Of a stretch of 64,000 nt of DNA, positions 8,240 through 41,281 are shown in pieces. The stretch is taken from NCBI RefSeq assembly GCF_901538265.1, contig NZ_LR593886.1, positions 6,779,738 through 6,843,737 on the forward strand, given 5' to 3'. Under the pieces are notes generated by a model. It had not been told where the DNA came from and ran no database searches. It saw only the letters and a list, made by a program, of their open reading frames with translations. The stretch comes from Gemmata massiliana. Its GTDB lineage: Bacteria; Planctomycetota; Planctomycetia; Gemmatales; Gemmataceae. A program made the translations under genes and the position numbers. The stretch's first letter is position 1, and the number at the start of each line of letters is the position of its first letter.

Positions 8240-9931
8240 TTACGGGAGGATGTTCATGAGTTCGTCCATCGCGGTGTTCACGACGGACAGGTATTTCGAG
8301 GCGCCCTGGATCTGGCGCTGGTAGTCGAGCAAGTGGAGCAGTTCTTCGTTCGTGTCCACGCCCGTGACGGACAGTTCCTGGTTGCTCAGGTTCTGGAGCG
8401 TGCTGTCCTGGGCCGTCTGCTGGTCGCTGATGTTGTTGATGTCGGTGCCGAGCGTGGACGCGATGTCGGCGAACTCTTCCGTCAGGGTGCGGGTACCGAA
8501 GACCGCCTGGTCCCGGATCGCCCCGAGGCGCTCCAGGTTGGTCCCGTCGCCCGGTTGCCCGGTGCGGCCCGCCGCGAGCAGTGCGGGGTTGTTCGAGATC
8601 GTCGGGTTCACCTTGATACCGACCGCGGTCGAACCGACGAACAGCCCGTTCACGCCGAGGGCGGACAGGATGTTCGAGGTGTCCGAGTTCGCCACCGCAC
8701 CGGACCCGGCCGGGACCGAGTCGCGCCCGGCGAAGTCGAAGGTGAAGCCCGCCTGCCCCTGGATATCGAGCGTGTTCGTCGTTGTGTTGACGGTCGCTTG
8801 CAGCCCCGGGACGGCGCTGAGCGCGGTCGCGATGTCGTTCAGGCTCTGGGTCGCCGGGTCGATCGTGATTGCCGTGTTCGTGCGGGTACTGGGGTTGACG
8901 TTGCTGTTGGTCACGCTCACGGTGAGCGTCCCGGATTGGATCGGGAACGGGAGCCCCGCCGCGTTGAGGAGCGCCGTGGGGGAGGACACCGCGTTGGTGC
9001 TGCTCGTCGAGGCGAGCGGCCCGCTCGACCCGAGGCCCGTCGCCTGGACCTGGTTCACCTGCTGGGCCAGCGAGCCGGCGAGGGCGTCGAGGCGCCCGCG
9101 GATCGCCGGGATGGTCGTGTTGTGGTCCTGCACCAGGGCACCCAGGGTGCCCCCATTGAACGTAACCGGTTGCGCCACACCCGTCTGAGTGATGACGACG
9201 TTGCCCGTCGCGTCGTTCGCGGCCTGGAACTGGTTCGCGTACTGGCCCACGACGACCGCGGCCCCGGACGCGATCACGTTGATCTCGCCGGACGGCTGCT
9301 CGACGGTCTTCACGTCCACGCGCTTCGAGAGCTCGTTGATGAGCTGGTCGCGCTGGTCGCGGAGGTCGTTGGTCGGGTTCCCGCGGTTCTCGGTCGTCAG
9401 GATGCGGTTGTTCAGGTCCGCGATCTTGGTGGCGTAGTCGTTGAGTTCGGTGACCGTCGACGTGATCTGCTTGTTGATGTCCGAGCGAAGCCGGTCGATG
9501 TCGCCCGCGGTGGAGTTCAGTTGCTGTGCGACCGAGCCCGCGGCCGTGAGGATCGCCCGGCGCGACGCCAGGCTGTCGGGCTGCGAGGTCAGTTGTTCGA
9601 TCTGGTTGAACAGACTGTCGAGCCGGTCCCCGACCCCGCCCTCGCCGCTGGCGAGCGTCGTCTCGATCTGCCGGCGCGAGTCGAGCTGGGTCGCAAAGTA
9701 CGACGAGTTCGCGTTCCCACTGATGATCGCCGTGCGGACCGGGGCCGCGGTGTAGCGCGTGATGGACGCGATGTCCACCCCGGTGCCCGCGGAGCCCGTC
9801 ACCGTGTTGATGAGGTTCACCGACTGCCGGTGGTACCCGGGTGTGGTCGCGTTGGCGATGTTCTGGCCGATCAGTTGCAGCGCCTTTTGCGCCGTCTGGA
9901 TGGCCGATGTACCGATGGGGAAAGCGTTCAT
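8240..9931 (-). CDS. flgK: Flagellar hook-associated protein FlgK
   Basis: The 563-residue protein has the FlgK N-terminus (QTAQKALQLIGQNIANATTP then GYHRQSVNL) and C-terminus (LQNLSNQELSVTGVDTNEEL, then LLDYQRQIQGASKYLSVVNT). The internal DLRDQRDQLINELSKRVDVK segment is a FlgK hallmark. FlgK (HAP1) sits between hook and FlgL. Its ATG overlaps the flgN stop by 4 nt, coupling the substrate to its export chaperone. Length agrees with the 500-600 residue norm. Confidence 0.94.
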   Translation of the reverse strand: MNAFPIGTSAIQTAQKALQLIGQNIANATTPGYHRQSVNLINTVTGSAGTGVDIASITRYTAAPVRTAIISGNANSSYFATQLDSRRQIETTLASGEGGVGDRLDSLFNQIEQLTSQPDSLASRRAILTAAGSVAQQLNSTAGDIDRLRSDINKQITSTVTELNDYATKIADLNNRILTTENRGNPTNDLRDQRDQLINELSKRVDVKTVEQPSGEINVIASGAAVVVGQYANQFQAANDATGNVVITQTGVAQPVTFNGGTLGALVQDHNTTIPAIRGRLDALAGSLAQQVNQVQATGLGSSGPLASTSSTNAVSSPTALLNAAGLPFPIQSGTLTVSVTNSNVNPSTRTNTAITIDPATQSLNDIATALSAVPGLQATVNTTTNTLDIQGQAGFTFDFAGRDSVPAGSGAVANSDTSNILSALGVNGLFVGSTAVGIKVNPTISNNPALLAAGRTGQPGDGTNLERLGAIRDQAVFGTRTLTEEFADIASTLGTDINNISDQQTAQDSTLQNLSNQELSVTGVDTNEELLHLLDYQRQIQGASKYLSVVNTAMDELMNILP

Positions 9932-29091: not shown

Positions 29092-29901
29092 ATGCTGTTT
29101 TCCTGGCTCCGCACCCGCCGTCGGCGCAAACTGCTCGCCGAACCGTTTCCGCTCCGGTGGACCGAGTTCCTCGAACGGAACGTCGGGCACTACGCGCGTT
29201 TACCTCTTTCCGATCAGGCGCGCGTCCGAGATGCGACCCGCATTCTCATCGCCGAGAAGCAGTGGCTCGGGCGCGGCGGGCTGTTCATTACCGAGGAAAT
29301 GCGCGTCACGATCGCGGCGCAAGCGGCCCTGCTGCTCCTCGACTCCGATCGCGGCTTTTATCCGTGGGTGCGCGAGGTCGTCGTGTTCCCAACCGAGTTC
29401 CGAACGCCGGTCGCGGGGGACGACTGGGAAGACGACTGGCTGTCCGACCAGCCACTCGCCGGGCAAGCGGTCGACCGCGGTCCGGTGCTTCTGGCGTGGG
29501 ACGAGGTGCTGAGCGAGGGCCGAGCGCCGGACGCGGGGTACAACGTCGTCCTCCACGAGTTCGCCCACCAGCTCGATTTCCTCGACGGCGCCTCCGCGGG
29601 TGCTCCGAATCTCAACGACCGCGCGCTCGAAACGCGATGGAAGTACGTGATGCGCGTCGCGTTCGAGGACCACCGCCGGGCCATACGCGAGAGCAACCCG
29701 GACACTCTCTTCACACCCCACGCGGCCGACAATGAGATGGAGTTTTTCGCCGACGCGACCGAAGCCTTCTTCTGTCGCGCGATCGACCTGAAGGAACTGC
29801 ACCCGGAAATGTACGCACTCCTCGCGGCGTACTACGGCATCGACCCGGTTGCCCGGTTCGGAACCGGAGAACGGGAAGAAAAATTCAAGATTAACCCCTG
29901 A
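29092..29901 (+). CDS. mtfA: MtfA-like zinc peptidase (M90 family)
   Basis: The 269-residue protein has the metallopeptidase motif VVLHEFAHQLDFLDG (HEFAH at 155-159), preceded by the MtfA-type region WVREVVVFPTEF and followed by EFFADATEAFF, which supplies the third ligand. MtfA (YeeI) family proteins are cytosolic peptidases linked to the Mlc glucose regulator in E. coli. The N-terminal WLRTRRRRKLLAEPFP start also fits. The gene is monocistronic. Whether an Mlc-like partner exists cannot be seen here. Confidence 0.9.
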   Translation: MLFSWLRTRRRRKLLAEPFPLRWTEFLERNVGHYARLPLSDQARVRDATRILIAEKQWLGRGGLFITEEMRVTIAAQAALLLLDSDRGFYPWVREVVVFPTEFRTPVAGDDWEDDWLSDQPLAGQAVDRGPVLLAWDEVLSEGRAPDAGYNVVLHEFAHQLDFLDGASAGAPNLNDRALETRWKYVMRVAFEDHRRAIRESNPDTLFTPHAADNEMEFFADATEAFFCRAIDLKELHPEMYALLAAYYGIDPVARFGTGEREEKFKINP

Positions 29902-33011: not shown

Positions 33012-36000
33012 TCAAAATGCGTGCTGAACGCCAAACCAGAATTGCAGCGGTCCCCCGCCGTTAAGTGGCTTACCCACGTCGAACCGCAGCGTGGCGCGTT
33101 CGATGAAGCTGAACACCGCGATATCTACACGAAGTCCCGCACCGACCGCGTGGGCCACGTTTCCGCCAACGAGTCGGCCGTTCGCGTAGACACCGCCCAC
33201 GTCGTAAAAGGTCGCGAGCCAGACGTTCCGCGCACCAATGCTGTGATCGAGTGCGTCCCAGGTCACGTTCCGCGCGAGCGGCCAACGCATTTCCAGGTTC
33301 GCCACCCACAGGGCGCTCCCCTGGCGTTCCGCGAGGTCGAACCCGCGGAACAGCGTGCCGCCCCCGAGCGCAAAGAACTGTCCGCGGTCCGGCGTCGCGA
33401 ACTGCCCCACGACGCGCCCCGCGATCCGCGCGACGCGGAGCGGTCCGGTCCATTCCGGTAACGTGTGGACCGCGGCAAGCTCCGCGCGCCCCTGCGCCAT
33501 CGGCTTCCAGCCGTCCGCGAAATTCGCCTGCCCACCGGCTGCCATCGCGTCGGCCCAGAGTCCGCACTCGGGATCCCAGTACGGCGTGTACAGGTTCAGG
33601 CGCACGTGCCAGCCCGCCATCCAGATCCGGTCCCAGCGATCGCCCTCGGGCCGGCGGGCGAACGGCAGGAAGTTGTCCTGGTAGGTCACGAACCCTTCGT
33701 CATAGAACATCGGCGGCAGATAAAGGCTCGACGACTCTCGGTGAATGTTCCGCATGTAGATCGAGCCGCGTTGTGCCCCGCTCGCGCCGTCCAAGCCGCC
33801 CCACGGCCCGCCGATCCGCGTTTCCCAGTTCGCACCGACCTCGCGGTGCTCGAACAGCAACTTACCGTCGACGCCCACGACCGCGTCGCGGTAGTCCGAG
33901 CGGACCGCGGTATACGCCCCGGCCGTGTAGCGTTCGGTGCGGAGCCCGCCCGCCCGCAGCCCGGCCATCGTGGAGCGCGTGTACCACGGGTCTTGCGCGG
34001 TTGGTCCCCACACCCACGGCCCGACGGTTAAGTTCCAGCGATCGTAATCGGACGTGAGCCCCGTCTCGTCGAGCATCGTGTACAGCGGCGTGACGCGCGC
34101 CTTGATCGACGGTTTCCACCGGTTGTTATTGGGGTTCGCATCGAGCAACACGTGGTCGGGGTCAACGGTCACCTGCTCCGGCTCGAACGGCAGTTCCAGG
34201 TCCACGCGCCATCTGTTGTCACTGAGCGGTGTCGCAGTCGCGTTGTGCTGCTCGAATTTCACCGGTTCCGAGAACGGGCCAACCGGAACCCGAACGCTGT
34301 TGGTACCGCGCGTGAATTCGAGGAGCGTCGGTTCGGTGAACTCGCGGCTCTGCTTCACCGTAACGGACACGGAATAGCCGGCCCGGGAGCGCGGACCGTT
34401 CATCGCCTCAACGGTGACCCGGTCGACCGACCAATCCGTGACTCCTTTACCGAACACCCAGCGCTGAAAAAACTCACCCCAATTCCGGCCGGTATAGGCT
34501 TCGAGTTCGGCCCGCAAGAGTTCCGATGTGAGAATGGACCACGAATACTTCTTCACGATGCCGCGAATGAAGTCGAAAAACGCGGCTTCGCCGAGCCGGT
34601 CCTCGATCATCCCGAACACCCGCGACCCGCGGTCGTAAGCCCCCGTGAACAGGCCGAACAGGTGTTTGTACTGGGGCAGTTCCTGCGCCGCGGGGGGCAT
34701 CTCGTTGTTGCGGAGCGCGTGATACATGCTGCCGTTGCGATAGTTCTCGCGATAAATGTTCGGCAGCCACTCCAGGCCCTTCGGCCACGCCAGGAACGTG
34801 TTGTTCTTACCGTGTTTGGTGTTGATGAGCCGGTGCGTGAAGTACGTAGCCGCGCCCTCGTCCAAGTAGGGCTCTGTGAACCCGTTCGTGCCGATCATGT
34901 TGTACCACCACTGGTGGCACGTCTCGTGTGACACGAGGTATTCGACGTACCCGCGTGCGAGGTGCGGCATCCCGAAGACGCGGTCGTCGACCATGATGAG
35001 CCCGCCGCACTCGTTCCCGTTCCACCCGAAGTAGGACTCCGCGACGGTGAACTGCGAGTACGGGTACGGCCCGAACCACTGCGAGAAGGTCGAGATCGCC
35101 TCGCCGACGATCTTCAGAATTTCCGTGGCGTAGAACTCGTGCTGTGCGAACGCGAGGCACCGCAACTTTACTTCGCGGCCGTCCGGGAGTTTCGTGGAAC
35201 TGGTGAACTCCTGGTAGCGCGCGGACGAGAGGATCGCGAAATCGCGACCCAGGAACGGCTCGAACAAAACCTTTTTCTTGTTTCCGGGAAGTTTCTGTTC
35301 GGACTTGATGACTGCCGAGCACGCGACCTTCTCGTTTTCCGGCACCGTGACTGTCGCACGGAAAACGCCGGCTTCGTTGTACCAGGGCTGGTGCCACGGC
35401 ACGAACGGCATCGGCTTCCACCCGCCGTCGTCGCACACCGCGAGCAACGGGAGCGCGTTCGTGAGGAACGTCACACCCTCGTAATACCCCCAGCGCCCCT
35501 GCTTGTTGGGCAACAAGATATCACACACCAACTCGATCGTGACGCTCTGCCCCGGTTGCACCGCGTTCGGAAGGCTGAAGCGCAGAGCGGTCGTGTTCTT
35601 CTCGTCGTAGCTGTAGCTCAGGGGAGTGGGAGCGGAGTTAGCACCGAGAAGGTGCGCGCTGGTGACATTCCCGGCCTTCCCGTGACGATCGATGCCCAAC
35701 GACGGCTGGAGGCGCAACAGTTCGAGCGTCTTCGCAAATAACAGCGATTCGCCCGCAGGCACCTGGAAGTGCGGGTAGAAGTTAAAAACGAGCTGATCGG
35801 TCGCTGTTTTGGTCGTGTTGGTCCACGTCACGCGCTCGCGGATCGTTGCGCGGTGCGTGGTATCGTCGATGGTAACATCGAGGTCGTACTGCGGACGGGC
35901 CGGTGGCGCAGCAGCCAACGCAGGTGCGTCCGCTGCTTTGCTTGGAGGTGCGAACAAGGCGAGCGCCGCGGCAAGAAGCGCGAGCCGCGTCGTCCGCGAC

Positions 36001-36059
36001 GAAAGAGTAAAGTAAATGGTCCTCACGGCCGTGGCATAGCGTGAGGTGACCGAAGACAC
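33012..36059 (-). CDS. M1-type aminopeptidase fused to a C-terminal outer-membrane barrel
   Basis: The 1015-residue protein has a signal peptide (LALLAAALALFAPPSKA) and an M1 gluzincin domain, with HETCHQWW (H378, E379, H382) and the third ligand E401 in YLDEGAATYF. The classic GAMEN exopeptidase motif is replaced by GNECGGLIMV near 348. From about residue 660 the sequence is rich in alternating aromatic strands. It contains GGGTLFRGFDLAER (RGF at 905-907), like the RGF/RGY motif of Omp85/D15 proteins, and ends in FWFGVQHAF, a terminal-Phe beta-signal. A surface- or periplasm-facing peptidase carried on its own barrel is inferred. The GTG start lies 4 nt after the Trm112-like gene. Confidence 0.8.
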   Translation of the reverse strand: MSSVTSRYATAVRTIYFTLSSRTTRLALLAAALALFAPPSKAADAPALAAAPPARPQYDLDVTIDDTTHRATIRERVTWTNTTKTATDQLVFNFYPHFQVPAGESLLFAKTLELLRLQPSLGIDRHGKAGNVTSAHLLGANSAPTPLSYSYDEKNTTALRFSLPNAVQPGQSVTIELVCDILLPNKQGRWGYYEGVTFLTNALPLLAVCDDGGWKPMPFVPWHQPWYNEAGVFRATVTVPENEKVACSAVIKSEQKLPGNKKKVLFEPFLGRDFAILSSARYQEFTSSTKLPDGREVKLRCLAFAQHEFYATEILKIVGEAISTFSQWFGPYPYSQFTVAESYFGWNGNECGGLIMVDDRVFGMPHLARGYVEYLVSHETCHQWWYNMIGTNGFTEPYLDEGAATYFTHRLINTKHGKNNTFLAWPKGLEWLPNIYRENYRNGSMYHALRNNEMPPAAQELPQYKHLFGLFTGAYDRGSRVFGMIEDRLGEAAFFDFIRGIVKKYSWSILTSELLRAELEAYTGRNWGEFFQRWVFGKGVTDWSVDRVTVEAMNGPRSRAGYSVSVTVKQSREFTEPTLLEFTRGTNSVRVPVGPFSEPVKFEQHNATATPLSDNRWRVDLELPFEPEQVTVDPDHVLLDANPNNNRWKPSIKARVTPLYTMLDETGLTSDYDRWNLTVGPWVWGPTAQDPWYTRSTMAGLRAGGLRTERYTAGAYTAVRSDYRDAVVGVDGKLLFEHREVGANWETRIGGPWGGLDGASGAQRGSIYMRNIHRESSSLYLPPMFYDEGFVTYQDNFLPFARRPEGDRWDRIWMAGWHVRLNLYTPYWDPECGLWADAMAAGGQANFADGWKPMAQGRAELAAVHTLPEWTGPLRVARIAGRVVGQFATPDRGQFFALGGGTLFRGFDLAERQGSALWVANLEMRWPLARNVTWDALDHSIGARNVWLATFYDVGGVYANGRLVGGNVAHAVGAGLRVDIAVFSFIERATLRFDVGKPLNGGGPLQFWFGVQHAF

Positions 36060-36063
36060 CAGT

Positions 36064-36294
36064 TCAGTTGGAATTCTTCCGGCGATTCGCTCGACGGTGG
36101 CAGGGAAGTTGGCTCACTTCGCGCATCCCGGCCGGCAAATCAGCCTCGTCCGGTACGAGCACAGGTAAGCCCTGTTTGATGGGGAAATGCACCGAACACC
36201 CGGAACAAACGAGTTGCTGCTCGTCGCGCCGAAGAGTGGCTTCGCGCTCGGGATCAAGCGGACAGCGAAGTTGTGCGAGGAAAGCGTCGTCCAT
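36064..36294 (-). CDS. Trm112/UPF0434-like zinc-ribbon protein
   Basis: The 76-residue protein matches the Trm112/YcaR pattern: LRCPLDPEREATLRRDEQQL, VCSGCSVHFPIKQGLPVLVP, DEA. Such proteins stabilise or activate methyltransferases, or are of unknown role in many bacteria. Only three of the usual four Cys are present (the first CPxC pair is CPLD). The start is ATG 36294. It is followed after 4 nt by the M1-barrel gene, suggesting an operon, although a functional link is unclear. Confidence 0.8.
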   Translation of the reverse strand: MDDAFLAQLRCPLDPEREATLRRDEQQLVCSGCSVHFPIKQGLPVLVPDEADLPAGMREVSQLPCHRRANRRKNSN

Positions 36295-36407
36295 AAAGTT
36301 TAATGTACGCGGTCCGGCCGAAACGTGGACAATTTCGTTGCGCGAACAAGGCAACCCAGCCTACTCGGTTGTTCCGGCAGGTAGTCCACACACCAGCGAT
36401 GAGCCAG

Positions 36408-36849
36408 TTAATCGTCTTCGGCCCAAGTCGAGCACATCGCTCGCAAATCCTCGATCAGCCACGTCTCGTAACTCAGGAGCCAGCTCGTTAAACGGCGTCT
36501 TACGGAATGGCATGTGGTAAACCACCGGATGCTCGCCATCGGGCGCGGTGCGACTGAAGTCCAAGCACTTGAAGCCATCTTTGTCGGGCTGCACAACGAG
36601 GTAGTGTTCCGGAAATTGGCACCACCCACGGGCGCGCTGCGTGTCGGTCCAAGCCGATCCGCGAGCACCGTCAATTGTGCCACAGATGATTCCCGAATAC
36701 GGCGAATCAACGATGCTGAATCCACCGAAGTGCGTTAAGAAAGCCCGGTAGCTCGTTGGCATCGGGCGCCGGAATGCCGCTTCGAGTTGCTGGATCATCT
36801 CCTCAGTAGCCGGTCCAGCAATATGTACTTCCGGCTCCAGCTCTCGCAT
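36408..36849 (-). pseudogene. SMI1/KNR4-family gene with apparent 3' frameshift
   Basis: The uninterrupted frame continues to 36361 and gives TEEMIQQLEAAFRRPMPTSY, FLTHFGGFSIVDSPYSG and QFPEHYLVVQPDKDGFKCLD, a SMI1/KNR4 pattern as in immunity or scaffold proteins. After PFNELAP the frame turns into unconvincing Arg-rich sequence. The neighbouring frame at that point reads LSYETWLIEDLRAMCSTWAE and then stops at 36408. Joining the two gives a normal SMI1 C-terminus, so a one-base indel near 36480-36490 is likely (real or sequencing error). The N-terminal start is uncertain; ATG 36849 is used to avoid overlap with the rRNA terminator. Confidence 0.6.
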
Positions 36850-36963
36850 TCGGGAGAGCAAGGCTGCGATCTCATCTGCGCATCCCAGCCCGACTTCAGA
36901 AACGGAGACGCCAGCGATTGATGTGTGTTTTGCGTGCGAGATGCGTACTCTAGGTACGTAAAA

Positions 36964-36997
36964 AATTCCCCCTGGGTCTTTCGACCCAGGGGGAATT
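36964..36997 (-). terminator. Rho-independent terminator of the 16S rRNA gene
   Basis: A perfect 15-bp stem (36964-36978 with 36983-36997) and TTTC-type 4-nt loop lie about 100 nt past the 16S 3' end. On the minus strand the stem runs straight into TTTTTACG. No 23S, 5S or tRNA gene lies between, so the transcript carries 16S alone. Confidence 0.9.
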
Positions 36998-37099
36998 GTA
37001 TATCTCGGCAAGTCGGTAGCGATAGCTGTTCGGTGTGGGTGATATGGGATTCATCACGCTGCTCAAGGCGTGCGATCCGGTACTTGTTAACATCCTTAG

Positions 37100-38602
<1,503 letters not shown>

Positions 38603-38906
38603 TATTACACCACGGCACTCTCGCGCCGCGGATCTTGTTGAGTTCAAAACTTGCCGTTGTTCGGTCATCAACTCAAAAGACTTTGACCGGTCTGGCACCA
38701 GCTGATAACCCTCGCGGGCCAGCAACTGGCTCCTTACTTGGTCAGAGATCCGGGTCGATGCCGATTCAACGACAACAACCCACACCTCTCAGCTATCGCT
38801 ACCGACTTGTCAAAGATCGTCTGTTGCTTCGCGTGACTCGTTCCAGTCTTGCGACTTTCATCTCGTCTTCGCGTCGCGTTCACCACCGCGGTGCAGTGGT
38901 AACGGA
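38603..38906 (-). other. 16S rRNA leader
   Basis: About 300 nt between the promoter and the mature 16S 5' end, with no credible coding sequence. It contains short inverted repeats such as TTGAGTT at 38638-38644 with AACTCAA at 38670-38676, possible processing or antitermination structures. Confidence 0.7.
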
Positions 38907-38935
38907 ATGATAAGAGCGAGCCCGGGGGGTGTCAA
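38907..38935 (-). promoter_or_regulatory. Sigma-70-type promoter of 16S rRNA
   Basis: On the minus strand a perfect -35 TTGACA (38930-38935) is followed after exactly 17 nt by TATCAT (38907-38912), five of six bases matching TATAAT. The spacer is GC-rich (CCCCCCGGGCTCG). Nothing else drives the 16S gene from upstream, so this is the natural rRNA promoter. Confidence 0.85.
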
Positions 38936-39611
38936 CCGGGCGGCAAAAAAAATTGGGAAAGCGTCCCAGAACCCTGCTTTTCCAAGGGTTTCCGGTGGTT
39001 GCGAGATGAGTCTAGCCAGAACCAGAGCGACTTACGTTACAGAGGACAGTCGTTCTGGGTGGTTCTGACCAAGGGTTGGGGAGCAACCAACTCCCGCCCG
39101 GCGACTGATACGTCCCCACACTTTCCGTGAGAACCATCAACCATCGAAAAAAGACCGACACAATCTTCTAGCACTCACCGGAGCCACGTCTCAACGAAAT
39201 ACCGCTCGGGATTTACCGTTCCTACCGCGTGGTTGCTACTTAATACGCTTATTCCAGCCTTAGCGCCCACTTGCCAACTTGTACGGCGGCAACTTTCACA
39301 GTTTCCAAACACAGAGACAGCAAATACTTCGAGACACGGATTGAGATGCGTCTGGGCAAAAGCCCCAGCGGATCAGACGTCCTTACTCCCAGAAACATGG
39401 GCCATCAATTCACGAAATTTCGCGATCAACTTGACGCAATATCGTAAATGACGAAATTTCGCGTCCGTTATCCGGCCAAAACTCTTGCTCTAAACCACTA
39501 TAGATTCGCAACTTGCATCATGATTTGCATTTTGGCATGTGCCCTGCTTCACGAACTGGGGCTGCGGGTTCAGAAATGCTCCGCAATTCAAGCACATAGG
39601 AGGAACCTCAA
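38936..39611. other. Gene-free region upstream of the 16S promoter
   Basis: About 675 bp with no protein-coding frame of credible composition and no tRNA recognised. GC content falls below the surrounding genes. It separates the 16S promoter from the divergent Cys-rich gene at 39612 and holds the paired palindromes at 39412-39463. Upstream activating sites for the rRNA promoter could lie here but are not identifiable by eye. Confidence 0.6.
39412..39463. repeat. Paired ACGAAATTTCGCG sites
   Basis: The 13-mer ACGAAATTTCGCG occurs at 39412-39424 and 39451-39463, 39 bp apart. Each has the 10-bp palindrome CGAAATTTCG at its core. The spacing (nearly four helical turns) and position 150-200 bp upstream of gene 39612 suggest a dimeric regulator binding twice on one face. 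Confidence 0.6.
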
Positions 39612-39890
39612 ATGGCAGCGTCTATCCGGTGTCACTGTCAGGGGAACCCTGAGTGCAAGCTCTGCTTCGGGAAGAAGTTCTACCCCTACCAGCCCGGACC
39701 GCGCGGTTGGATGCCGTTCCGTTGCCCGACGTGTCAGGGGGCTCGGAATCTTCCTGGCTCACCAAACATAGAGACGCCCTGCTTTACTTGCGCGGGAACT
39801 GGGGGAATTGATCCGGCGAACCCGCCGTTTGCGAAAGGTTGGTGGGGGGCGCTGCGTGTTGGTTGGAAGGCGTTTTTCGGTGGCGGATAA
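39612..39890 (+). CDS. Small Cys-rich protein with DnaJ-like zinc motifs (92 aa)
   Basis: An AGGAGG-type site (aggaggaacctcaa) precedes the ATG. The product has IRCHCQGNPECKLCFGKKFY, FRCPTCQGARNLPG and CFTCAGTGG, i.e. CxxCxG repeats like the DnaJ zinc-finger region. It has a short hydrophobic aromatic tail (GWWGALRVGWKAFFGGG). It lacks a J domain. A zinc-binding chaperone-like or protein-interaction role is plausible but unproven. It stands alone. Confidence 0.75.
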   Translation: MAASIRCHCQGNPECKLCFGKKFYPYQPGPRGWMPFRCPTCQGARNLPGSPNIETPCFTCAGTGGIDPANPPFAKGWWGALRVGWKAFFGGG

Positions 39891-39943
39891 GCAGCCTCGC
39901 GCAAGAGGCGCGTCCCAAAGACCGATTTCCGTGCGAAGCTAAA

Positions 39944-39971
39944 GGCGCGATCACGTAAGACGGATCGCGCC
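39944..39971 (-). terminator. Terminator of gene 39980
   Basis: A perfect 9-bp stem GGCGCGATC/GATCGCGCC (39944-39952 with 39963-39971), 10-nt loop, followed on the minus strand by TTTAGC. It begins 9 nt past the stop of the gene at 39980. Confidence 0.6.
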
Positions 39972-39979
39972 CGAGATAG

Positions 39980-40411
39980 TTATTTCTTCTTGACGTACAC
40001 AGCCACGCCGTACCCGGAGTCGGCGGTTGTTTTGAACCCGGTCGGGCGTTCCTTTTTCGGGTCGTGTTGCACGCACACCCACAGCTTTCCGTCTTCCAGT
40101 TTGTAGATGGCTTTCCGCTCGAAATCTTTACCGAGCATGTCCATCCCTTTTGGGGCCTTCGACGGGTCGAGCACGAGCTTCACTTCTGACGTGTGCGTTG
40201 CCGCTCCTCGCTTGAACGTGTTGGTCGCTTTGTCCCCCTCCACTAGCAACGTCCGATCCAGTTTCTCTTTCGGGGTCACCACGCCGTTCAGTTCCTCCGA
40301 CTCGGCCACCCACGAACCTTGAAGTGCCTTCAGTTCTGTTTGGGGCGTCGGATCAGCTCCGTACCCGGTCGTACACATTGCCAAAACCACCGCGCTGGTC
40401 ACCCACTTCAT
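39980..40411 (-). CDS. Secreted TIGR03067-type planctomycete protein
   Basis: The 143-residue product has a signal peptide (MKWVTSAVVLAMCTTGYGA) and the pattern ELKALQGSWVAESEELNGVV, KLVLDPSKAPKGMDM, AIYKLEDGKLWVCVQ and RPTGFKT. This matches the lipocalin-like planctomycete domain catalogued as TIGR03067 (LQGxWxxxSxExNG). Function is unknown; the fold suggests a small-molecule or cell-wall ligand-binding beta-barrel. Confidence 0.8.
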   Translation of the reverse strand: MKWVTSAVVLAMCTTGYGADPTPQTELKALQGSWVAESEELNGVVTPKEKLDRTLLVEGDKATNTFKRGAATHTSEVKLVLDPSKAPKGMDMLGKDFERKAIYKLEDGKLWVCVQHDPKKERPTGFKTTADSGYGVAVYVKKK

Positions 40412-40501
40412 TGTTACGCCCTCAAAAGCACTGAGCGCCAGTTGCGCCCACGTGCCCGGGATGGTACGCGAGTGCCCGAAACGGGTCTTGGCGTTTCTTG
40501 A

Positions 40502-41281
40502 CTACCCCGGCACATAGGTGCCCGGAGATGTTCGCGTAATCGCTCGGAACTGCTTGTAAAAGCGGCTCAGATCCCCGAATCCGACGTCGAACCCGACCTG
40601 CGCGATTTTGTCCCCAGCGAGCAATTTCATGATCGCGTGCAGCACCCGCAAGCGGTGCCGATACACGCGGGGCGGAACGCCGTAATCGCGCTTGAACGCT
40701 CGACTGAACTGCGTGGGGCAGACGTGAAGTGCTTGGGCCAGTTCGGACAGCGGCACGGCCGAATCGAAGTGTCGATCGATCACGTTTTTGCACGCGGAGC
40801 CAAGCGCAGTTGGGGTTTGCGATCGGCTGATCTGAATCGACTTCCCCGCACCCACGACCAGCGCCGCAATCGCTTCGGGCGTTTCTGGACTTGGGTCCAC
40901 CGGCGCTTCAAACAGAATTGGTTCGTTCCCAACGCCTTCGGGAAGCGGGCCGCTGCAAAAGACGCCCGTCGAAACGCAGTGGAACTCCTGAAATCGAAGT
41001 TCCACAAGTGAATAAGGTGGGAGGAACCAACAGAACCGATCGAACGGTACCCACGCCACTTCGTCCGGGCGCTGACAGCCGATCGCACCGGCGTCCCGTT
41101 CGATCCGCGCGAAGAACCAGTACGGCCCCGTCCCCATCACCGCCCGGTGTGCGACCGGCACAGTGATCTCTTCCGACATTCCGACCAAGCCACCGCGAAC
41201 AAATCGAACTTTACGCCGGATGTGGACCGTGTCGCGGTCCGAATCAAATGCGGGCAGGTTTGGGATATTCATGTGCGTCAC
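40502..41281 (-). CDS. AraC-family transcriptional regulator
   Basis: The 259-residue protein has a cupin-like N-terminal half and a C-terminal double helix-turn-helix. The latter contains PLSELAQALHVCPTQFSRAF, RDYGVPPRVYRHRLRVLHA and QVGFDVGFGDLSRFYKQFRA, the AraC signature. It lies divergently from the His-rich secreted protein and the RND efflux genes, with a 153-bp shared intergenic region, so it may control them; this is inference. An ATG two codons further in is an alternative start. Confidence 0.9.
   Translation of the reverse strand: MTHMNIPNLPAFDSDRDTVHIRRKVRFVRGGLVGMSEEITVPVAHRAVMGTGPYWFFARIERDAGAIGCQRPDEVAWVPFDRFCWFLPPYSLVELRFQEFHCVSTGVFCSGPLPEGVGNEPILFEAPVDPSPETPEAIAALVVGAGKSIQISRSQTPTALGSACKNVIDRHFDSAVPLSELAQALHVCPTQFSRAFKRDYGVPPRVYRHRLRVLHAIMKLLAGDKIAQVGFDVGFGDLSRFYKQFRAITRTSPGTYVPG

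Follow-up and report, generated by a model that had tools for sequence, protein, structure and literature searches.

An M1 metallopeptidase fused to an Omp85-type barrel, predicted to be anchored in the outer membrane of Gemmata massiliana and its relatives

Introduction

What would a cell do with a zinc aminopeptidase that carries its own outer-membrane barrel, and on which side of the membrane would the enzyme stand? The question is raised by a gene in a window of 64,000 nucleotides from Gemmata massiliana (contig NZ_LR593886.1, positions 6,779,738 to 6,843,737), in which an earlier note, made from the letters alone, had seen the fusion of an M1 peptidase with an Omp85-like barrel. This fusion is borne out by the sequence and its conservation, by structure prediction and by comparison of folds. 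Omp85 proteins generally function in assembly or translocation, and architectures without POTRA domains have already been described among them (PMC4104836), so that the lack of POTRA does not exclude a protein from the superfamily. In its section on subfamilies, the 2014 catalogue of Omp85 proteins speaks of ten and names none with M1, and its main text contains no word that starts with "peptidase" (PMC4104836). Among the open-licence papers that our searches listed, we found no title or abstract opening on an M1-Omp85 fusion, and no experiment on its family.

Results

Gene, start codon and signal peptide

The coordinates and strand of the open reading frame are confirmed by the sequence.

33012..36059, minus strand: M1-Omp85 fusion gene, longest open reading frame, 1015 codons with a GTG start at 36059
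35934..36026, minus strand: putative signal peptide, about residues 12-42 in the 1015-residue numbering (used throughout), ending in SKA before ADAP; read from the sequence by eye

Matching GTG codons in relatives favour a shorter gene, and the true start is probably the GTG at 36026, with a product of 1004 amino acids. In four loci (L002, L003, L005 and L045) the GTG at this place is the sole start codon before the hydrophobic stretch, and a matching GTG is also found in L004, L006, L008 and L012, having been placed in L004, L006 and L012 by means of the V-G-N/K residues and not by frame position. The protein is 94% identical to its counterpart in Gemmata sp. IIL30. That orthologue (loci L008 and L044) is interrupted by one in-frame stop within the catalytic domain, which reflects either a sequencing error or a broken gene. 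The source genome (10.1 Mb, one contig) contains exactly one match to the Pfam family Peptidase_M1 (PF01433), the fusion itself, and two to the family Omp85 (PF01103), namely the fusion and an 812-residue frame that is taken to be BamA.

The M1 part

Peptidase_M1 matches the protein with 55 bits (E 1.1e-14; cut-off 27.7 bits). An AlphaFold2 model of residues 43-1015, computed with an alignment of 41 sequences, has a mean pLDDT of 90.1 and a pTM of 0.88; its residue numbers are those of the 1015-residue protein minus 42. The top Foldseek hits of this full-length model are to ERAP2, and VIA-align superimposes it on tricorn factor F3 (PDB code 1z1w) over 464 residues (Z = 33.2, rmsd 3.1), the matches to M1 structures beginning at model residue 11-12. 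The M1 part is thus predicted to be a three-domain metallopeptidase of the M1 fold, with the following features.

35148..35891, minus strand: M1 domain I, the beta "saddle", about residues 57-304 (strands in the AlphaFold2 model between model residues 15 and 262)
34455..35147, minus strand: M1 domain II, catalytic, about residues 305-535 (Pfam Peptidase_M1 at 318-534; helices in the AlphaFold2 model)
35007..35021, minus strand: NGNEC, residues 347-351, the GAMEN equivalent with E350
34914..34928, minus strand: HExxH zinc site, residues 378-382
34857..34859, minus strand: third zinc ligand E401, giving HExxH-x18-E
34635..34637, minus strand: catalytic-type tyrosine Y475, in YDRG
34164..34433, minus strand: M1 domain III, beta sandwich, about residues 543-632 (strands in the AlphaFold2 model between model residues 501 and 590)

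The zinc site that had been described as intact is indeed complete, with H378, E379, H382 and E401 all in place. Among 87 aligned rows, 86 of them distinct, H378 and E379 are each kept in 82, H382 and E401 in 86, and the whole HExxH motif in 82. Y475, which we take to correspond to the catalytic-type tyrosine of known M1 enzymes, is present in 86 of the 87. The GAMEN glutamate confers exopeptidase specificity in known M1 enzymes. The literal motif is absent from the source protein, as the earlier note had said, but its glutamate is not: most rows have NGNE(C/S) in its place, and E350 is retained in 84/87. In two loci (L207 and L123) position 350 is a glutamine, while HExxH, E401 and Y475 are kept.

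In its fold, in HExxH-x18-E, in the tyrosine and in the glutamate at the GAMEN position, the M1 part resembles the aminopeptidases PepN, ERAP, F3 and LTA4H and the two-domain M1 enzyme of Deinococcus; it differs from them in having NGNE(C/S) for GAMEN and in being, by its putative signal peptide, exported. In enzymes of the PepN type, a helical domain IV forms a cap over the active site. This domain is missing from the fusion, where the barrel follows directly after domain III and occupies the place of domain IV in the sequence.

The Omp85 barrel

The list returned by the fold search with the full-length model was filled by M1 enzymes, and the barrel was therefore folded and searched alone. 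The barrel-only model (pLDDT 85.4, pTM 0.80) is matched in Foldseek by TamA, BamA, Sam50 and FhaC, and its best VIA-align partner is TamA (PDB code 8us1; Z = 21.8, 280 residues, rmsd 3.6). Among the best 50 VIA-align rows, 49 are titled BamA/BAM, TamA, SAM or FhaC, and the remaining one, 5ayw ("a membrane complex"), is presumably also a BAM entry. The C-terminal region is accordingly predicted to be a 16-strand Omp85-type barrel and not a soluble domain, in agreement with the earlier proposal.

33015..34037, minus strand: 16-strand Omp85 beta barrel, residues 675-1015 (AlphaFold2, Foldseek, VIA-align)
33339..33350, minus strand: FRGF, residues 904-907, in loop L6 between strands 11 and 12
33195..33209, minus strand: FYDVG (FxDxG), residues 951-955, in strand 13
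33015..33017, minus strand: C-terminal Phe 1015 of the beta-signal

The Omp85 signatures of BamA and FhaC sit in L6 (RGF) and in strand 13 (FxDxG). Both are found here, and the RGF motif and the terminal phenylalanine on which the earlier note had relied are real. R905, D953 and G955 are invariant in the 87 rows, F951 is kept in 86 and G906 in 76; the final residue is phenylalanine in 86 rows and tyrosine in one. An alanine at 906 is seen in 11 of the 87, nine of which, all of one family (f6, L180-L188), read RAL in L6 and two (L078, L079) RAF, with R905 and the strand-13 aspartate unchanged.

The Pfam score is close to the limit. Over the whole protein, Omp85 reaches 21.8 bits (E 1.5e-4), below the cut-off of 24 bits, whereas the barrel alone (24.3 bits) and the genome search (25.1 bits) lie above it; at E 0.01 the family matches 32 of 41 relatives, with 38 bits in L122. 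No POTRA family is among the Pfam matches to the M1-Omp85 protein up to E 1, and only 42 residues separate domain III from strand 1. In its barrel fold, in the L6 RGF motif, in the FxDxG of strand 13 and in the terminal aromatic residue, the protein resembles TamA and BamA, from which it differs in carrying an enzyme, in having no POTRA domain that we could find and in occurring without a TamB match in the genomes searched.

The link between enzyme and barrel

34038..34163, minus strand: structured link from domain III to barrel strand 1, residues 633-674, at the position held by POTRA in other Omp85 proteins

Residues 632-674 form 43 gap-free positions in 87/87 aligned rows, and the link is ordered in the AlphaFold2 model (block pLDDT 83-92). 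With its identical length and its order in the model, the link does not look like the loose tether of a passenger. In PlpD, a fusion of a patatin with an Omp85 barrel, the enzyme domain was located to the periplasm (PMC11116518). The attachment of the enzyme to strand 1, the ordered link of invariant length and this precedent, taken together, speak for an enzyme on the periplasmic side, anchored in the outer membrane, more than for display at the surface. Of the two locations that had been offered, the cell surface or the periplasmic face, the latter is therefore preferred by model and analogy, and the surface is the weaker reading.

Genomic neighbourhood

36064..36354, minus strand: open reading frame of a Trm112-like zinc ribbon, the upstream neighbour (Pfam Trm112p, 27.3 bits; cut-off 22)

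The Trm112-like gene had been thought to be coupled to the fusion, with a puzzlingly tight spacing. The adjacency is real at this locus, but the gap of 4 nt holds for the longest-frame start only, and from the probable GTG at 36026 it becomes 37 nt. By tblastn, 20 of 81 loci, the source locus included, have a Trm112-like frame ahead of the fusion gene; the 81 are those of 91 distinct loci with at least 450 nt of upstream sequence. Cruder pattern counts gave 20/47 and, with a second pattern that misses L002, 0/27; L048, the twin locus of L002, does have the frame by tblastn, and L004, in which the first pattern count detects it, has a flank too short for inclusion among the 81. The adjacency is confined to the branches of the tree with Gemmata and its nearer genera, and not all members there show it. 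We regard it as a local arrangement, which says little on the function of the fusion, and have rejected a functional coupling.

Nor is there a conserved operon. Among the clusters found in at least four genomes across 23 neighbourhoods, the largest are the fusion gene itself and frames that overlap it; the Trm112-like frame is present in 7/23 and the next true neighbour in 6/23. TamB (PF04357) has no match in any of 21 genomes, the source included, while 6 of 14 control genomes, E. coli among them, do match, and a TamA replacement that works with TamB was rejected on this count.

Some further features of the window may be recorded here. A complete 16S rRNA gene (37100-38600, minus strand) lies upstream of the SUKH, Trm112-like and M1-Omp85 frames, and no 23S or 5S match was found within 35000-41000. 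The protein of the SMI1/KNR4 (SUKH) family (36361-37011, minus strand) is flanked by the 16S rRNA gene on one side and by the Trm112-like frame on the other. A second metallopeptidase, of type M90 (29092-29901, plus strand; 225 bits), is located about 3 kb from the fusion.

Spread among genomes

Within the family Gemmataceae, 85 of 95 genomes match with an E-value of at most 0.001. In 64 of the 95 a single unbroken match starts no later than query residue 150 and extends at least to residue 1010, which argues against a chance occurrence; the other matches are weak and M1-only in two genomes (G458, G468) and in pieces in the remainder. Homologous two-domain proteins, for which the earlier note had suggested a search, are found in the class Planctomycetia, where a barrel profile matches 104 of 297 sampled genomes, 103 of them strongly. 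The 108 strong matches fall in five families (f1, f102, f103, f6, f2), and 101 of them lie in frames of at least 800 amino acids. The seven in shorter frames are from G400, which has an internal stop, and from G470, G461, G398, G498, G567 and G457. A single strong match is the rule (98 of the 103 genomes).

In a sample of the phylum, 19 of 392 genomes match the barrel, three of them strongly. Of 19 places with a weak match, 16 were fetched, and in none of them does M1 match at E 0.01; these are ruled out as fusions and are probably of BamA type. Twenty plasmid records match, none over more than 80% of the query. A scan of the genomes of 84,980 species with six peptide patterns returned 12 loci, all from Planctomycetota-type records by title, with the proviso that such patterns detect close relatives only and that phyla beyond Planctomycetota are thus poorly sampled. 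The fusion is ancient within a part of the class Planctomycetia, and most sampled genomes of the class are without it. One genome of the genus Gemmata (G403), listed as 100% complete, has no match, so the fusion is not essential everywhere.

Copies without an active site

In five genomes the fusion has a further copy (L080, L178, L179, L194 and L195) that lacks HExxH and keeps its Omp85 motifs intact. The copy L080, from genome G418, has none of E350, H378, E379, H382, E401 and Y475, whereas in genomes G427-G430 one copy each has HExxH changed to QAxxH, with E350, E401 and Y475 kept. A live copy is also present in all five genomes. The two kinds of dead copy belong to separate clades (FastTree local supports 0.98-1.0), and neither kind has as its sister the live copy from the same genome, which is on another contig.

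By the NG86 method, dN/dS is 0.05-0.15 in both parts of the four dead copies of G427-G430 (two close pairs) and 0.02-0.16 in live copies; values with dS near or above 1 are unreliable, and the copy of G418, outside this comparison, sits on a long branch. On this sequence evidence, the dead copies of G427-G430 look like working proteins under purifying selection. Their maintenance in this genus is a hint of a role beyond cutting, or of hetero-oligomers, and the scaffold may serve a purpose other than proteolysis as well. In G418, some 1.1 kb beyond the dead copy, the last 31 residues of a barrel lie stray within another frame of 245 codons (L193:1557-2291, plus strand; G418:C206 near 9335-9430), perhaps as the remnant of a tandem duplication.

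Discussion

The M1-Omp85 protein is a pairing that the 2014 catalogue does not name, within the known class of enzyme-Omp85 fusions. It shares with the patatin-like Omp85 proteins, once called type Vd and represented by PlpD, an N-terminal enzyme followed by a C-terminal 16-strand Omp85 barrel, and in both the enzyme would stand on the periplasmic side, as found for PlpD and as is probable for M1-Omp85. It differs in that the enzyme is an M1 metallopeptidase and not a patatin (Pfam gives no patatin match), in that no POTRA was found, and in that, within the searches made, its members come only from Planctomycetota. Another likeness is to a subfamily whose enzyme belongs to PF00149, presumably the calcineurin-like metallophosphoesterases. 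This "Metallo" subfamily of Heinz and Lithgow (2014) likewise joins a metal-enzyme domain to an Omp85 barrel in a non-POTRA architecture, and periplasmic quality control is one proposal made for it (PMC4104836); the enzyme there is of PF00149 and here of M1.

From the computed domains and fold, the conserved catalytic set and the fixed link, we infer what is probably, if by no means assuredly, a zinc aminopeptidase anchored in the outer membrane on its periplasmic side. The precursor would be exported by means of its signal peptide, and the C-terminal Omp85-type barrel would be inserted into the outer membrane, presumably by BamA. The M1 enzyme would fold in the periplasm and be docked at the periplasmic mouth of the barrel through the fixed link that replaces POTRA. 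As the barrel takes the sequence place of the capping domain IV, the active-site cleft may be bounded by the barrel and the membrane. Its likely work would be the trimming of peptides or of exposed N-termini on the periplasmic side of the outer membrane, for which incoming peptides or the debris of outer-membrane proteins are candidate substrates.

The same architecture could also be read as an Omp85-type assembly or translocation factor in which the M1 domain replaces POTRA and binds, perhaps also trims, unfolded clients, catalysis being secondary. We think this unlikely, but it has real points in its favour: Omp85 proteins as a whole serve assembly or translocation (PMC4104836), all 87 rows keep the L6 arginine and the strand-13 aspartate, TamA scores highest as a fold match to the barrel, and copies devoid of HExxH exist in two clades, four of them in one genus with dN/dS values (0.05-0.15) much as in live copies. 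Against it, HExxH is kept in 82/87 rows; the missing TamB (0/21 genomes) shows that this is not the classical TAM, and besides the Trm112-like frame (7/23) no neighbouring gene is found in more than 6/23 neighbourhoods. The zinc-site-less second copies nonetheless show that there is more to the protein than peptidase activity in the clade where they are under purifying selection. A speculative and likewise rather unlikely synthesis would be a POTRA-less Omp85 protein that uses the aminopeptidase fold in place of POTRA as a periplasmic client-handling module, to capture and trim polypeptides at the outer membrane, the second copy in two lineages having become a non-catalytic subunit for binding or assembly.

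Surface display through an autotransporter of type Vd, in which the barrel would take its own M1 domain to the outside, strikes us as improbable. The architecture does recall the older model of PlpD (PMC4104836), but the PlpD enzyme was later found in the periplasm (PMC11116518), and the passenger here would be an enzyme of about 580 residues and three domains on a short, ordered link of invariant length. We are more sceptical of oligomers proposed by analogy with PlpD dimers, namely a homo-oligomer or, where a dead copy exists, a hetero-oligomer of active and inactive subunits, which we consider very improbable. That a live copy accompanies the dead one in 5/5 genomes would fit such a pairing, whereas 98 of the 103 strongly matching genomes have a single barrel match of this strength, and live and dead copies, on different contigs, do not pair as closest relatives in the tree.

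With this fusion, an M1 peptidase joins the short list of enzymes fused to Omp85, and the finding extends the idea drawn from PlpD that the Omp85 scaffold is reused for new functions. The apparent total lack of POTRA makes the need for these domains testable by comparison. Within a planctomycete genome of 10 Mb, no other frame matches M1 and only one other matches Omp85; the cell envelope of this phylum is a matter of long debate. The copies that lack an active site by nature offer a ready test for a role beyond the cutting of peptides.
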